A stretch of DNA of 64,000 nucleotides from Polaribacter litorisediminis. Lineage in GTDB: Bacteria; Bacteroidota; Bacteroidia; Flavobacteriales; Flavobacteriaceae. The notes under the pieces were generated by a model. The model did not search any database. It saw only the letters and a list, made by a program, of their open reading frames with translations, and was not told the origin of the DNA. A program made the position numbers and the translations under genes. Shown here in pieces: positions 14,356-17,939 of this stretch. The number at the start of each line of letters is the position of its first letter. The stretch's first letter is position 1. Location: positions 669,001 to 733,000 of the forward strand of contig NZ_CP082966.1 in assembly GCF_019968605.1 (NCBI RefSeq), given 5' to 3'.

Positions 14356-14553
14356 TGCCTTAATATTATTTTTGTAGGTGTTATTTCTTCCGTCAAAATT
14401 TTTGAAACTTCTGCAAGGAAATTATTAAATTACAAAAAGAAACCATTTAATTTAGAATCAAATAAAGCTGATAGAAAAGTTCTTTCAGCTTTATTTATTG
14501 TAAGTAATGTTATTGATGCCTTGCAACAAACTGGGGGAGTGAATTTAGGCTAA
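14320..14553 (+). pseudogene. Possible gene remnant or short hypothetical ORF
   Basis: The frame from about 14380 to 14553 has the codon character of local genes (A or T in most third positions) and would encode ETSARKLLNYKKKPFNLE and on to VIDALQQTGGVNLG. There is no ATG or GTG start; the only start is a TTG inside the lon terminator. I do not recognise the protein. A remnant of a decayed gene is more likely than a functional gene, but chance is possible. Confidence 0.25.
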
Positions 14554-14566
14554 TGATTCTTATGTT

Positions 14567-14791
14567 TTAAATCTGACGAGTTTCAGGTTTCGTAAAAGAT
14601 TTTAAAATTTTGGTAGATAAGTTTATCGACAAAATTAAACTAGGGAAGAAACAAGAAAAAAAGACGATAAGATTTAACAAATCTAGTAAAGAAGTTATAC
14701 TAGATGACGTAAGTAAATTATAGCCTGAATAGGATAATCCGATTGCAGAAAGTATAAAGAGAGCTGCTTGTTTTAGGGTGTCTGTTTTCAT
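14567..14791 (-). CDS. Two-helix micro membrane protein, tandem copy 1
   Basis: A 74-residue protein beginning MKTDTLKQAALFILSAIGLS, with two hydrophobic helices (about residues 8-27 and 38-60) joined by a short Ser/Thr-rich loop, and a polar end KSFTKPETRQI. The proteins at 15120-15338 and 15704-15928 are clear paralogues: all start M-K/N-T-x-T-x-K-Q and share S-G-x-N-L in the loop and the CFFP motif in helix 2. I do not recognise the family. The conserved CFFP motif and the duplicated promoters argue that these are genuine genes. Holin-like, small-toxin-like or stress-membrane roles are all conceivable; none is supported by a neighbour. Confidence 0.7.
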   Translation of the reverse strand: MKTDTLKQAALFILSAIGLSYSGYNLLTSSSITSLLDLLNLIVFFSCFFPSLILSINLSTKILKSFTKPETRQI

Positions 14792-14833
14792 AATTATGGA
14801 AATTATAAATTAATAAGGACTGTTACTATTACC

Positions 14834-14894
14834 TAAATTTACAACAAAAGGATGGTTTTGATCGCTAAAAAAGAATTGCAGTAGTACGTGTACT
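14834..14894 (-). promoter_or_regulatory. Duplicated promoter and palindrome of copy 1
   Basis: On the minus strand a TAAATTTA box (14834-14841, one base off the TAnnTTTG consensus) precedes the gene by 43 bases. Further upstream lies AGTACGTGTACT (14883-14894), arms AGTAC/GTACT around two bases. The same order and similar flanks recur before copies 2 and 3. The palindrome looks like an operator for a dimeric regulator. Confidence 0.5.
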
Positions 14895-15012
14895 CCTCAG
14901 AAAATAAAGGTGTTAGTTTAAGGGATAAGTGTTTTTATTAGTGCAATTGTGCTTTTAGCTTTTGTGTAATATTTTTACTTTTTGTAATTGAATATGAAGA
15001 ATACAACTTGTA

Positions 15013-15057
15013 CTCCAAAAAAAAACTTAAAGAGTGTTTCTTTAAGTTTTTTTGGAG
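15013..15057 (-). terminator. Long hairpin terminator of micro-gene copy 2
   Basis: CTCC-A9-CTTAAAG at 15013-15032 pairs with CTTTAAG-T7-GGAG at 15040-15057 (18 paired bases, two unpaired A's, 7-base loop). It lies 60 bases beyond the stop of copy 2 on its own strand. The symmetry makes a bidirectional terminator plausible. Confidence 0.7.
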
Positions 15058-15119
15058 GATTTGATCATGAACATACGGCGGGGGAATAGTTTATATAAAT
15101 CGCTATTTAAATTTAAAAT

Positions 15120-15338
15120 CTAATGTGTTGCAAGTTTTAAAATTGATTTTAGAGTTTTAGCAGATAAGTTTGCTGTCAAAATTAAAGAAGGAAAGAAACA
15201 AGCAAAGAAAGTCATTACTGTTACTACATCAGAGAAAGATTGAATGTTCGAGATTTTTATTAAATTAAGTCCTGAAAAGTATAAACCGGTGATAGCGATT
15301 AAAAGAATTACTACTTGTTTGATGGTGTCTGTTTTCAT
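15120..15338 (-). CDS. Two-helix micro membrane protein, tandem copy 2
   Basis: A 72-residue paralogue of copies 1 and 3, starting MKTDTIKQVVILLIAITGLY, with loop SGLNLIKISNIQS and second helix VMTFFACFFPSLILTANLS. Copy 2 and copy 3 share the loop sequence IQS-x-SD and VMTFF and are closer to each other than to copy 1, suggesting two successive duplications. The 328 bases separating it from copy 1 hold the copy 1 promoter and this gene's terminator; the 365 bases up to copy 3 hold its promoter and no other gene. Confidence 0.72.
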   Translation of the reverse strand: MKTDTIKQVVILLIAITGLYFSGLNLIKISNIQSFSDVVTVMTFFACFFPSLILTANLSAKTLKSILKLATH

Positions 15339-15360
15339 GATAGGGAGAATTATTGTTACT

Positions 15361-15421
15361 CAAATTTACAATAAAAGGATTGTTTTTATACTCAAAAAAG
15401 GATCGCAGTAGTACTTGTACT
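15361..15421 (-). promoter_or_regulatory. Duplicated promoter and palindrome of copy 2
   Basis: On the minus strand TAAATTTG (15361-15368) is an exact TAnnTTTG -7 box, 23 bases before the start codon. The palindrome AGTACTTGTACT lies at 15410-15421, followed upstream by a block (AAGGAATAAGTGTTTTT on plus, around 15440-15460) also shared with copy 1. Confidence 0.6.
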
Positions 15422-15703
15422 CCTTAAAAAATAAAAGTATGAATTCAAGGAATAAGTGTTTTTAGAAATAACATGGTAGCTCTAATTTCAAATTAAATTT
15501 TATCAATCTGTATAACAGCATGTTACATTTTTTTGAAAATTTTTAACCGAACGATTAAAGTACAGCATAAAACTATTTGATTTTGAGTTTAAAACTAAAG
15601 ACTTGAGCTGCTTTTAATGCATCTTTTAAAAAAGCCCTTGCTATTTGCAGTAAAGATGTGATGCAAAAAATAATATCAAAAATTTCAATTTTGTCTAATT
15701 TAT

Positions 15704-15928
15704 TTATATTTGTAAGGTTTTAAATTTTACAAGGAATTGTATTAGATTAATAGATAAGTTTACACTTAAAATTGAGAAAGGAAAAAAACAAGAGAAAAAA
15801 GTCATTACCGTTGCTGCATCAGATAAAGATTGTATACTAGGAATGGTCAATAAATTGATTCCTGAAAGGTATAAACCGATGGCACAAACTAAAAGGATCG
15901 TTACTTGTTTTAAAGTATTTGTGTTCAT
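15704..15928 (-). CDS. Two-helix micro membrane protein, tandem copy 3
   Basis: A 74-residue paralogue beginning MNTNTLKQVTILLVCAIGLY, loop SGINLLTIPSIQSLSD, second helix VMTFFSCFFPFSILSVNLS and a basic-hydrophobic end. It is the most upstream of three head-to-tail copies. The 419 bases between it and the pseudogene at 16348 contain its promoter and A/T-rich sequence with no ORF I can support. Confidence 0.7.
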   Translation of the reverse strand: MNTNTLKQVTILLVCAIGLYLSGINLLTIPSIQSLSDAATVMTFFSCFFPFSILSVNLSINLIQFLVKFKTLQI

Positions 15929-15969
15929 AATTGGGGGGAATTATAAATTAATATTAAATATTGATAAGT

Positions 15970-16030
15970 CAAAACTACAATAAAATGATGCTTAAGGCGC
16001 AAAAAAAAGGAGCACAGTAGTAGTTGACCT
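15970..16030 (-). promoter_or_regulatory. Duplicated promoter of copy 3, palindrome degenerate
   Basis: TAGTTTTG on the minus strand (15970-15977) is an exact TAnnTTTG box, 42 bases before the ATG. At the equivalent place of the palindrome the sequence reads AGTAGTTGACCT (16019-16030), aligned with the other two copies by the flanking CAGTAGTA but no longer symmetric, so regulation of this copy may differ. Confidence 0.5.
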
Positions 16031-16347
16031 TTTCAAGAAATAAATGTTGAATTTTAAAGAATAAGTGGTTGAGTGTTAAATTTATTTTTATAATTATCTT
16101 TTTAAATAGATTAAATGTATATAAATAGTCTAGTTTTTTTTCATTTAGATCGTTGTAAGTAGTCTATTTAATTGCAACTAATGTTGTGAATAAAGCAATG
16201 TTACCGCACTTAAATTATATTCAGATGTAGCCAAATACTAGAAGATTTAAAGTGAAATTCACCAAGAATAATAACATAAAGAGATGTCGTTTTACACGAA
16301 TTGAGTAATAAAATTAATCTTAAAACGTCATCTAAAAAATTTCTACA

Positions 16348-17363: not shown

Positions 17364-17939
17364 TTAGATAGTATATAATTTTTTGCGAATTCTACTTAAT
17401 TGAACGGGCGTAATATTTAGAAAAGAAGCAATGTGATATTGAGGTATTAAATTTTCTATGTTAGGAATTACCCTTTTTAATTTTTTATATCGCATTGTTG
17501 CATCTAAAATAGTTAAGTCATATATCCTTGATTCAAGCAATAAGAATACACTTTCTAAAGCGCTTGCGTACATGTATGCAATATCTTTATCCTCTAAGGC
17601 AAGTTGTTTTAGTTTTTTAAAATTGATGGCATATAACTCACATTCAGTTAAACAACTATAAGAAACATCAGAAGACTTGTCTAAAATTAAAGCGCCTAAA
17701 GCACCCGTAGCACTAAAAGGCGTAAATAGACTTCTTATATATTCTTTGCCTTTTTCATCAGTATAATAAGATCTTACAATCCCGCTTTTAAGAATAAAAA
17801 GGTCTTGTGGTATTTCTCCATACTTTGCTAATATATGGTTATTAGAAAATTTTTTTATTCGTGTAAGCTTTGAAAATTTCTGATAAGATTCTTTAGGTAA
17901 AACATGAAAGTTATTAATAAAATTAAGCAAGTTTTTCAT
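17364..17939 (-). CDS. Crp/Fnr family transcriptional regulator
   Basis: A 191-residue protein with an N-terminal cyclic-nucleotide-binding-like beta-roll (ILAKYGEIPQDLFILKSGIVR, about residues 35-55) and a C-terminal helix-turn-helix end (PQYHIASFLNITPVQLSRIRKKL, about 165-187). The DNA-binding domain is the short form common in Bacteroidota Crp-like regulators; no cysteine cluster for an iron-sulfur centre is seen, so it is not a classical Fnr. Ligand and targets are unknown. It starts 43 bases after the stop of the WbqC gene on the same strand and may be transcribed with it. Confidence 0.87.
   Translation of the reverse strand: MKNLLNFINNFHVLPKESYQKFSKLTRIKKFSNNHILAKYGEIPQDLFILKSGIVRSYYTDEKGKEYIRSLFTPFSATGALGALILDKSSDVSYSCLTECELYAINFKKLKQLALEDKDIAYMYASALESVFLLLESRIYDLTILDATMRYKKLKRVIPNIENLIPQYHIASFLNITPVQLSRIRKKLYTI

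Follow-up and report, generated by a model that had tools for sequence, protein, structure and literature searches.

Three small genes within a 64,000-nucleotide stretch of the Polaribacter litorisediminis genome (the window) are read, on a modest balance of probability, as arrayed cassettes under LytTR control, from a family restricted to one genus, in which C-rich mRNAs encode a two-helix membrane protein and sister C-rich small RNAs (sRNAs) belong to the same regulon. In relatives, a switch that looks alike also precedes short C-rich RNA genes beside a likely regulator, and a single signal may therefore activate the small proteins and the RNAs alike. On the level of the sequence, the reading is carried by a promoter module, its direct repeats, the link between module and gene family in the genome of the window, an excess of C-runs, and similar repeats before RNA genes. 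The cassettes share one layout: the module with its repeat pair, a -7 box, a short leader, the open reading frame (ORF), and a 3′ untranslated region (UTR), with a terminator hairpin in several.

The window array and its protein family

The array consists of three head-to-tail ORFs on the minus strand, w1 (14567..14791), w2 (15120..15338), and w3 (15704..15928), encoding predicted two-helix membrane proteins of 74, 72, and 74 amino acids, respectively. A preliminary description of the stretch had placed the genes at exactly these positions, and the N-terminal pattern, the SGxNL loop, and the CFFP motif were all found as described there. The AlphaFold2 model of w1 (mean pLDDT of 84.7) shows helices at residues 2 to 28 and 35 to 67; going by this model, the protein looks like a two-helix hairpin integral to the membrane. 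Invariant residues among the nine proteins of the genome include K7, Q8, G18, L19, G23, N25, L26, D37, F44, F45, C47 to P50, and N57 to S59. The window copies have no family match in Pfam, NCBIfam, or PHROGs (which gives no cutoff; best E value of 0.11), in agreement with the earlier claim that no family is known for them, and four relatives have no match in Pfam. A Foldseek search against the PDB returned 73 matches at an E value of ≤10 and none at ≤0.001, which is uninformative because the query is a two-helix hairpin. No credible Rfam match was obtained for the units of the window stretch, and across 12 loci at the gathering threshold the units remained without a match, with tRNAs and the DUF805b RNA appearing elsewhere in the loci. 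Four of the arrays have the DUF805b RNA in their loci (L056 8811-8843, L171 1169-1201, L055 871-903, and L169 5788-5820). The proposal of a small membrane protein outside the known families fits these results, and the protein would be a regulated one.

The genome of the window, one contig of 4.34 Mb, contains nine intact family copies at four places: the window array, the tandem genes x1 to x4 (1814550-1816566), and the singletons y (259143) and z (1500036). Six of these lie outside the window and were absent from the preliminary description, as were the relic described next, the direct repeats, and the C-run in most leaders of the family. The x1 and x2 proteins are identical. A decayed tenth unit at 3430060 has kept the module and is missing the start and the first codons. 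The preliminary description had proposed calculating dN/dS between the copies: all 36 pairs among the nine lie below 1 (0.00 to 0.84), with values of 0.15 to 0.21 in the close pairs w1/x3, w1/x4, w2/x1, w2/x2, and x3/x4, so that purifying selection fits the nine copies. Its view that whole gene-plus-promoter units were duplicated, with retention of protein and promoter, holds as well, given a module on each of the nine intact copies and the relic together with dN/dS values below 1. Arrays in relatives reach up to eight near-identical copies (genome G009). Single Crp/Fnr-like genes lie near both tandem arrays of the window genome, at 17364-17939 of the window (tested with Pfam) and at L009 2468-3004; the two proteins are 26% identical to each other.

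Of 166 congeneric genomes searched with a broad profile (A4), 27 carry the family, among them the window genome; the genus is apparently Polaribacter. Homologues, the search for which had been suggested, thus exist and are confined to one genus in the genome searches. Outside the genus, 16 of 397 genomes of the taxonomic family gave weak matches, and the five that were read are chance frames. Among the matches listed, Polaribacter sp. IC066 is the one relative with a GTDB name; genome G549 carries a protein that is listed under Polaribacter gangjinensis. A large protein set holds 39 family proteins, of which three are named Polaribacter and one is named after a Paraglaciecola metagenome-assembled genome (MAG), the rest being nameless or hypothetical. 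The protein listed under the Paraglaciecola MAG (P0028) would lie outside the phylum, by either transfer or a binning error.

The neighborhoods of the copies differ between subfamilies. A divergent single-copy subfamily with proteins of ∼65 to 68 amino acids, lacking the strict repeats, is seen in five genomes (L037, L047, L058, L064, and L065) between what we take to be accA and a thioredoxin-like lipoprotein gene; this accA type is perhaps the ancestral form. Other copies (L057, L059, L060, L061, L062, and L025) lie near a cluster that we presume to contain GH20 hexosaminidase, nucleotidyltransferase, GHMP kinase, and sodium-symporter-like genes. An uncharacterized protein of ∼164 amino acids that looks secreted is encoded near family copies in six genomes (L025 4328-4822, L055 2344-2829, L056 6933-7427, L059 5850-6377, L061 3351-3848, and L062 3293-3790), with 37 to 68% identity between loci. 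It was rejected as an obligate partner, as the window genome has two such genes (106978 and 3629731), neither of them beside the copies.

The promoter module and its direct repeats

All nine copies of the window genome share a conserved upstream module of ∼98 bp with 74% mean column identity. In the aligned units, it extends from CACTTATTCCTT to CCTTTTTT, and the -7 box comes next. R1, a model of the module sequence built from the nine copies, scores the window modules, all three of which were in its training set, at 79.6 bits (w1, 14838..14934), 82.7 bits (w2, 15365..15461), and 72.5 bits (w3, 15974..16070), all on the minus strand. As the preliminary description had noted, a TAnnTTTG-like box precedes each gene on the same strand: TAAATTTA at 14834..14841 for w1, where the last base is off, TAAATTTG at 15361..15368 for w2, and TAGTTTTG at 15970..15977 for w3. 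We take the -7 promoter of the cassettes to be of the Bacteroidota type.

In the window genome, R1 recovers the nine copies and one more strong place, the relic at 3430060-3430157 (E value of 2.7e-16), with weaker matches beginning at an E value of 2.5e-4 (260033). A 32-base pattern of the module, allowing up to three mismatches, gives seven matches, each before a family gene (7/9), compared to none for the reversed control. Since the matches of both R1 and the pattern fall there, the clear module is tied to this family in the window genome. A weak module (23 bits) lies ∼900 bp downstream of y (L010 6034-6127), with no recognizable gene or C-run closely after it, and is probably a relic.

The preliminary description had drawn attention to a shared palindrome, AGTACNNGTACT. 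It is exact in w1 (14883..14894) and w2 (15410..15421), with a chance expectation of 0.01 in the window, and does not stand as a conserved control element. Only these two of the nine copies have it; x3 shows a near-match, and the other six read, e.g., GCTCAAATACTAC at this place. Across the genome, the palindromes with up to two mismatches are not more common than their reversed controls (24 + 19 versus 35 + 40), and AGTACNNGTACT was therefore rejected as an operator. The conserved upstream part is wider than the palindrome: CACTTATTCCTT..TACcTTTATTTTCTAAA..CTCAAATACTACtgcgatCCTTTTTT.

Common to all nine modules are 9-bp direct repeats, CA[C/G]TTATTC, spaced 21 bp apart. In the window, the pairs lie on the minus strand at 14902..14931 for w1 (14923-14931 and 14902-14910, the second repeat being degenerate), 15429..15458 for w2 (15450-15458 and 15429-15437), and 16038..16067 for w3 (16059-16067 and 16038-16046). 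For the repeat test, three A7 rows and L168, which has no anchor, were left out; 23 rows were kept, corresponding to 15 nonredundant modules. In these 15, the match at offset 21 is 7.07 of 9 positions, compared to a null of 2.69 (standard deviation [SD] of 0.35), and none of 2,000 shuffles reached the score at any offset from 12 to 35. The third base is equal in both repeats in 10 modules outside the type of the window genome and IC066 (C/C in eight and G/G in two, some of them near-identical); in the 13 modules of that type, the second repeat has a T at this base regardless of the first.

LytTR-binding sites consist of two direct or inverse repeats of 9 to 11 nt with 11 to 13 nt between them and have no common consensus (PMC4847170); a frequent form has 9-bp repeats and a 12-bp spacer (PMC6193735). 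The cassette repeats, with 9 bp and 12 bp between them, show this architecture, and all three window pairs are LytTR-site-like in this sense; the likeness claimed is one of architecture only, since no common consensus exists among LytTR sites.

Within the wider family, the strict first repeat is present in 16 of the 73 protein units examined. The units with repeats belong to the window genome, IC066, G549, G054, and G597. The other 57 units show no repeat pair above chance (1.49 versus a null of 1.31; 58 of 200), so that LytTR control could hold for only part of the family. Across the genus, R1 matches 36 of 166 genomes at an E value of ≤0.01, above what such E values predict; the matches read singly are those of the window genome, G574, G549, G547, and the places on contig C245 of G054. 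In none of the 16 R1 loci L147 to L162 is there a repeat pair, and these therefore look like composition matches. In IC066, a clear module (35 bits; L163 1848-1938) is separated by ∼300 nt from the start of a downstream gene, which by eye resembles a PAS sensor kinase gene of the window genome (L090 5678-8770).

C-runs in the leaders and predicted C-rich RNAs of relatives

A second feature of the family is a C-run directly before the start codon. Of 72 distinct family units, 48 have CCCC in the 30 nt preceding the start; among other ORFs of ≥120 amino acids, taken from 31 of the loci, the count is 2 of 164. The set of leaders was reduced from 75 to 72 by removal of duplicates; six frames without a start were left out, as were two A7 rows from the consensus. 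A smaller first comparison, restricted to 22 nt before the start, gave 32 of 50 units versus 0 of 75 controls. After the stop codon, CCCC is found in 26 of 71 units versus 13 of 163 controls. The accA-type subfamily has a leader C-run in only 1 of 14. In the window genome, three of nine leaders contain CCCCC or longer, five contain CCC (w2 and x1 to x4), and w1 contains CC.

On the minus strand of the window, CCC lies at 15343..15345 in the w2 leader, and CCCCC lies in the 3′ UTRs of w2 (15080..15084) and w1 (14533..14537). The w3 leader is predicted to form a hairpin (15924..15947) with an A/U stem, a CCCCCC loop (15933-15938), and the AUG in the 3′ arm. The C-run as the loop of an A/U stem with the AUG in its 3′ arm recurs in y, z, some copies of G047 and IC066, and others. 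The excess of leader stems is modest, with 4.15 pairs compared to 3.21 (SD of 0.25) in 20 nonredundant leaders (0 of 2,000 shuffles), and is driven by few leaders; one IC066 leader folds no better than its shuffles (z score of -0.56). Terminator-like hairpins are predicted downstream of w2 (15013..15057; folding z score of -5.1) and w1 (14460..14496; -4.1), both on the minus strand. A terminator scan is negative at both, because the hairpins are A/T rich and the scan demands three G-C pairs.

Repeats similar to those of the cassettes also precede predicted RNAs without an ORF. Eight such C-rich units of ∼90 to 130 nt are found in three genomes (G549, G054, and G006), all with a CANTTAT pair upstream, spaced 21 bp in seven and 22 bp in the third unit of G549. 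R1 scores five of the eight at 14 bits or more and two weakly (9.1 and 8.2 bits), with no match at one. In G549, two tandem modules are each followed by a -7-like box and a predicted transcript of ∼115 nt, with three single-stranded C-runs and an intrinsic terminator carrying a CCCC loop predicted in both RNAs; the third unit, upstream of these, has the weak module of 9.1 bits and one C-run. The three units contain four, four, and one runs of CCC or more and fold with z scores of -4.0 to -4.3. Multiple copies, a length of ∼100 nt, repeated C-rich motifs, and a terminator, the features of C-rich sRNAs of the LhrC/csRNA kind, are thus all present in the predicted units. The G549 RNA stretch has no credible match in Rfam.

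A covariance model built from the three G549 units (R2) matches 6 of 166 genomes at an E value of ≤0.01, convincingly in G054 and G006 and more weakly in G582, G599, and G046. G054 contains two complete RNA units and a third truncated by the end of its contig; the total is taken as three because the terminal part of contig C220 overlaps with the truncated unit. Their modules lie directly upstream (R1 of 20.3, 14.2, and 18.7 bits). G006 contains two units. The matches in G582 and G599 were set aside for lack of the CCCC loop; G046 has a C-loop terminator, and no module is seen there. A C-rich RNA of the G549 type was not found in the window genome.

The RNA loci of G549, G054, and G006 also contain regulatory genes. 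On one side lie genes for a LytTR protein, a histidine kinase of ∼395 amino acids, receiver proteins, and a larger sensor kinase. Pfam, run for G549 only, identifies LytTR (PF04397; E value of 1.6e-14) and, in the kinase, HisKA and HATPase_c; the LytTR frame of G006 is open over 249 codons. On the opposite side lies an alpha/beta hydrolase gene headed by repeats (R1 of 14.5, 19.8, and 7.2 bits in G549, G054, and G006, respectively), with WS/DGAT genes beyond it in G549. These two sides fall on separate contigs in both G054 and G006. The best match of the RNA-locus LytTR protein in the window genome is P0047 (on the 4339639-bp contig), with 67% identity overall, 59% in the receiver half and 76% in the DNA-binding half. 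Taken alone, such a relative, a candidate for the cognate regulator, is weak evidence, because LytTR regulators of this type are numerous (372 matches). The P0047 gene lies in none of the stretches read, and the RNA-locus kinase was not seen in the window genome among the best 120 of 199 matches listed. Among the 23 closest LytTR proteins (P0040 to P0062), relatives of the protein at L187 5829-6581, one (P0049) has a precomputed Pfam receiver match; since many more distant LytTR proteins do match, the receiver domain of the closest ones may be degenerate.

A proposed joint circuit, its alternatives, and known systems

We propose a circuit in which a signal would act through a kinase on a LytTR regulator, which would bind the repeats and turn on all cassettes at once, in the way known for LytTR proteins and other groups of small genes. 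The many copies of the cassette would serve dosage. The C-run before the AUG may be a site of posttranscriptional control at which a joint RNA or protein partner acts, as it would on the C-rich RNAs; the excess of C-runs and the shared repeats are the reasons for assuming a partner common to leaders and RNAs. The protein, judging from sequence and model, would be inserted in the inner membrane, its two ends facing inward, and act on a membrane partner upon the signal.

A more specific version, somewhat unlikely and put forward tentatively, is a Csr-like circuit around the C-run: the LytTR regulator would induce the membrane-protein mRNAs, with their C-run next to the start codon and in some copies in an A/U hairpin loop, together with tandem C-rich decoy RNAs that repeat the motif, and an RNA-binding protein or a G-rich RNA would read the motif. 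Protein and decoy levels would then increase in parallel. The coding cassettes would then be dual-function RNAs themselves. Of a motif placed in a hairpin loop at the mRNA start, as in Csr systems, the C-run is seen in the 48 of 72 units mentioned above and the hairpin in a subset only. One pattern search for a G-rich trans partner, run at zero to one mismatch, picked up nothing but antisense sequences to leaders of two family units, and it gave 42 matches at two mismatches.

Type I toxin-antitoxin loci such as Ldr and Ibs are characterized by small hydrophobic toxins, tandem copies, and a patchy distribution, and the small hydrophobic two-helix proteins with their tandem copies and narrow, patchy distribution have the same appearance. 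The toxins would be held by an antisense RNA, with the C-run leader as the pairing site. This explanation is unlikely. An antisense -7 box at one common place is missing in the nine units of the window genome: six have one within the ORF, at either of two places and with TTG upstream in two, and three have none. Moreover, the repeats also precede ORF-less RNAs in the same direction. A small membrane protein of a housekeeping type, carried along by its neighbor genes and with incidental duplications and modules, would account for the single copies without strict repeats at fixed places in several relatives (beside accA or the GH20-type cluster). It is improbable in view of the C-run excess and of nine copies in four places that keep a module of ∼98 bp (mean column identity of 74%). 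A further possibility is that the cassettes encode bacteriocin-like peptides controlled by a LytTR protein. In streptococci and lactobacilli, several small genes of this kind have direct-repeat promoters in common; the promoter logic would be equal, and the small genes here are likewise multiplied and diversified. However, no export or immunity gene was recognized by eye among the recurring neighbors, no double-glycine leader is visible, and the protein looks like an integral hairpin, making such peptides quite improbable. A phage holin (one of the earlier guesses for this two-helix protein of holin size) or other mobile-element gene is highly improbable, and phage or plasmid origin was rejected, as no relatives are found in IMG/VR (0 of 503 candidate stretches) or, with w1 as the only query, in INPHARED and PLSDB, and the neighbors of w1 to w3 are chromosomal, with no phage gene beside an endolysin.

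If joint LytTR control of cassettes and RNAs is correct, Polaribacter, a common marine genus, would offer a testable LytTR regulon joining a new family of small membrane proteins with multicopy C-rich sRNAs, and the start-codon C-run, common to both kinds of RNA, would open a concrete way into the little-known posttranscriptional control of flavobacteria. A literature search that left most subscription papers outside its reach found no paper on such Polaribacter RNAs or proteins.

The proposed system resembles the LytTR regulons of AgrA (the subject of PMC4227749), YpdB, and HdrR/BrsR in having direct repeats of 9 bp, with a 12-bp gap, ahead of the promoter, in its several small targets, and in the LytTR gene with a histidine kinase at the RNA locus; it differs in its own repeat sequence, in the Bacteroidota-type -7 promoter, and in its targets, for which a new family of membrane proteins and C-rich RNAs are proposed. 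LytTR regulatory systems, as described in PMC6193735, combine regulator and membrane protein in one operon under direct repeats, in contrast to the loci read here, where the membrane-protein gene is not in the operon of the regulator. Within the same phylum, the FopS sRNAs of Bacteroides likewise form a multicopy family; they are ORF free, bound by RbpB, and act via the R1′ seed, and the C-run rule is absent from the published FopS passages at hand (PMC11697453).

The Csr/Rsm systems, with CsrA and the CsrB/RsmX decoys, share the repeated short motif in sRNAs and two-component control; the motif here is CCCC and not GGA, and the binding protein is hypothetical. In Csr/Rsm systems, the short motif also occurs in mRNA leaders. 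The nearest functional parallel is provided by LhrC1-5 and the C-rich (UCCC) sRNAs, with no sequence relation claimed. Flavobacteria hardly use Shine-Dalgarno pairing, so the targets would differ from those of LhrC, and, unlike for LhrC, similar repeats here also head protein-coding units with C-runs. The LhrC1-5 RNAs of Listeria are multicopy and under two-component control, and each carries three redundant UCCC sites in loops and a single-stranded stretch; the authors themselves compare LhrC with Csr (PMC4132741).
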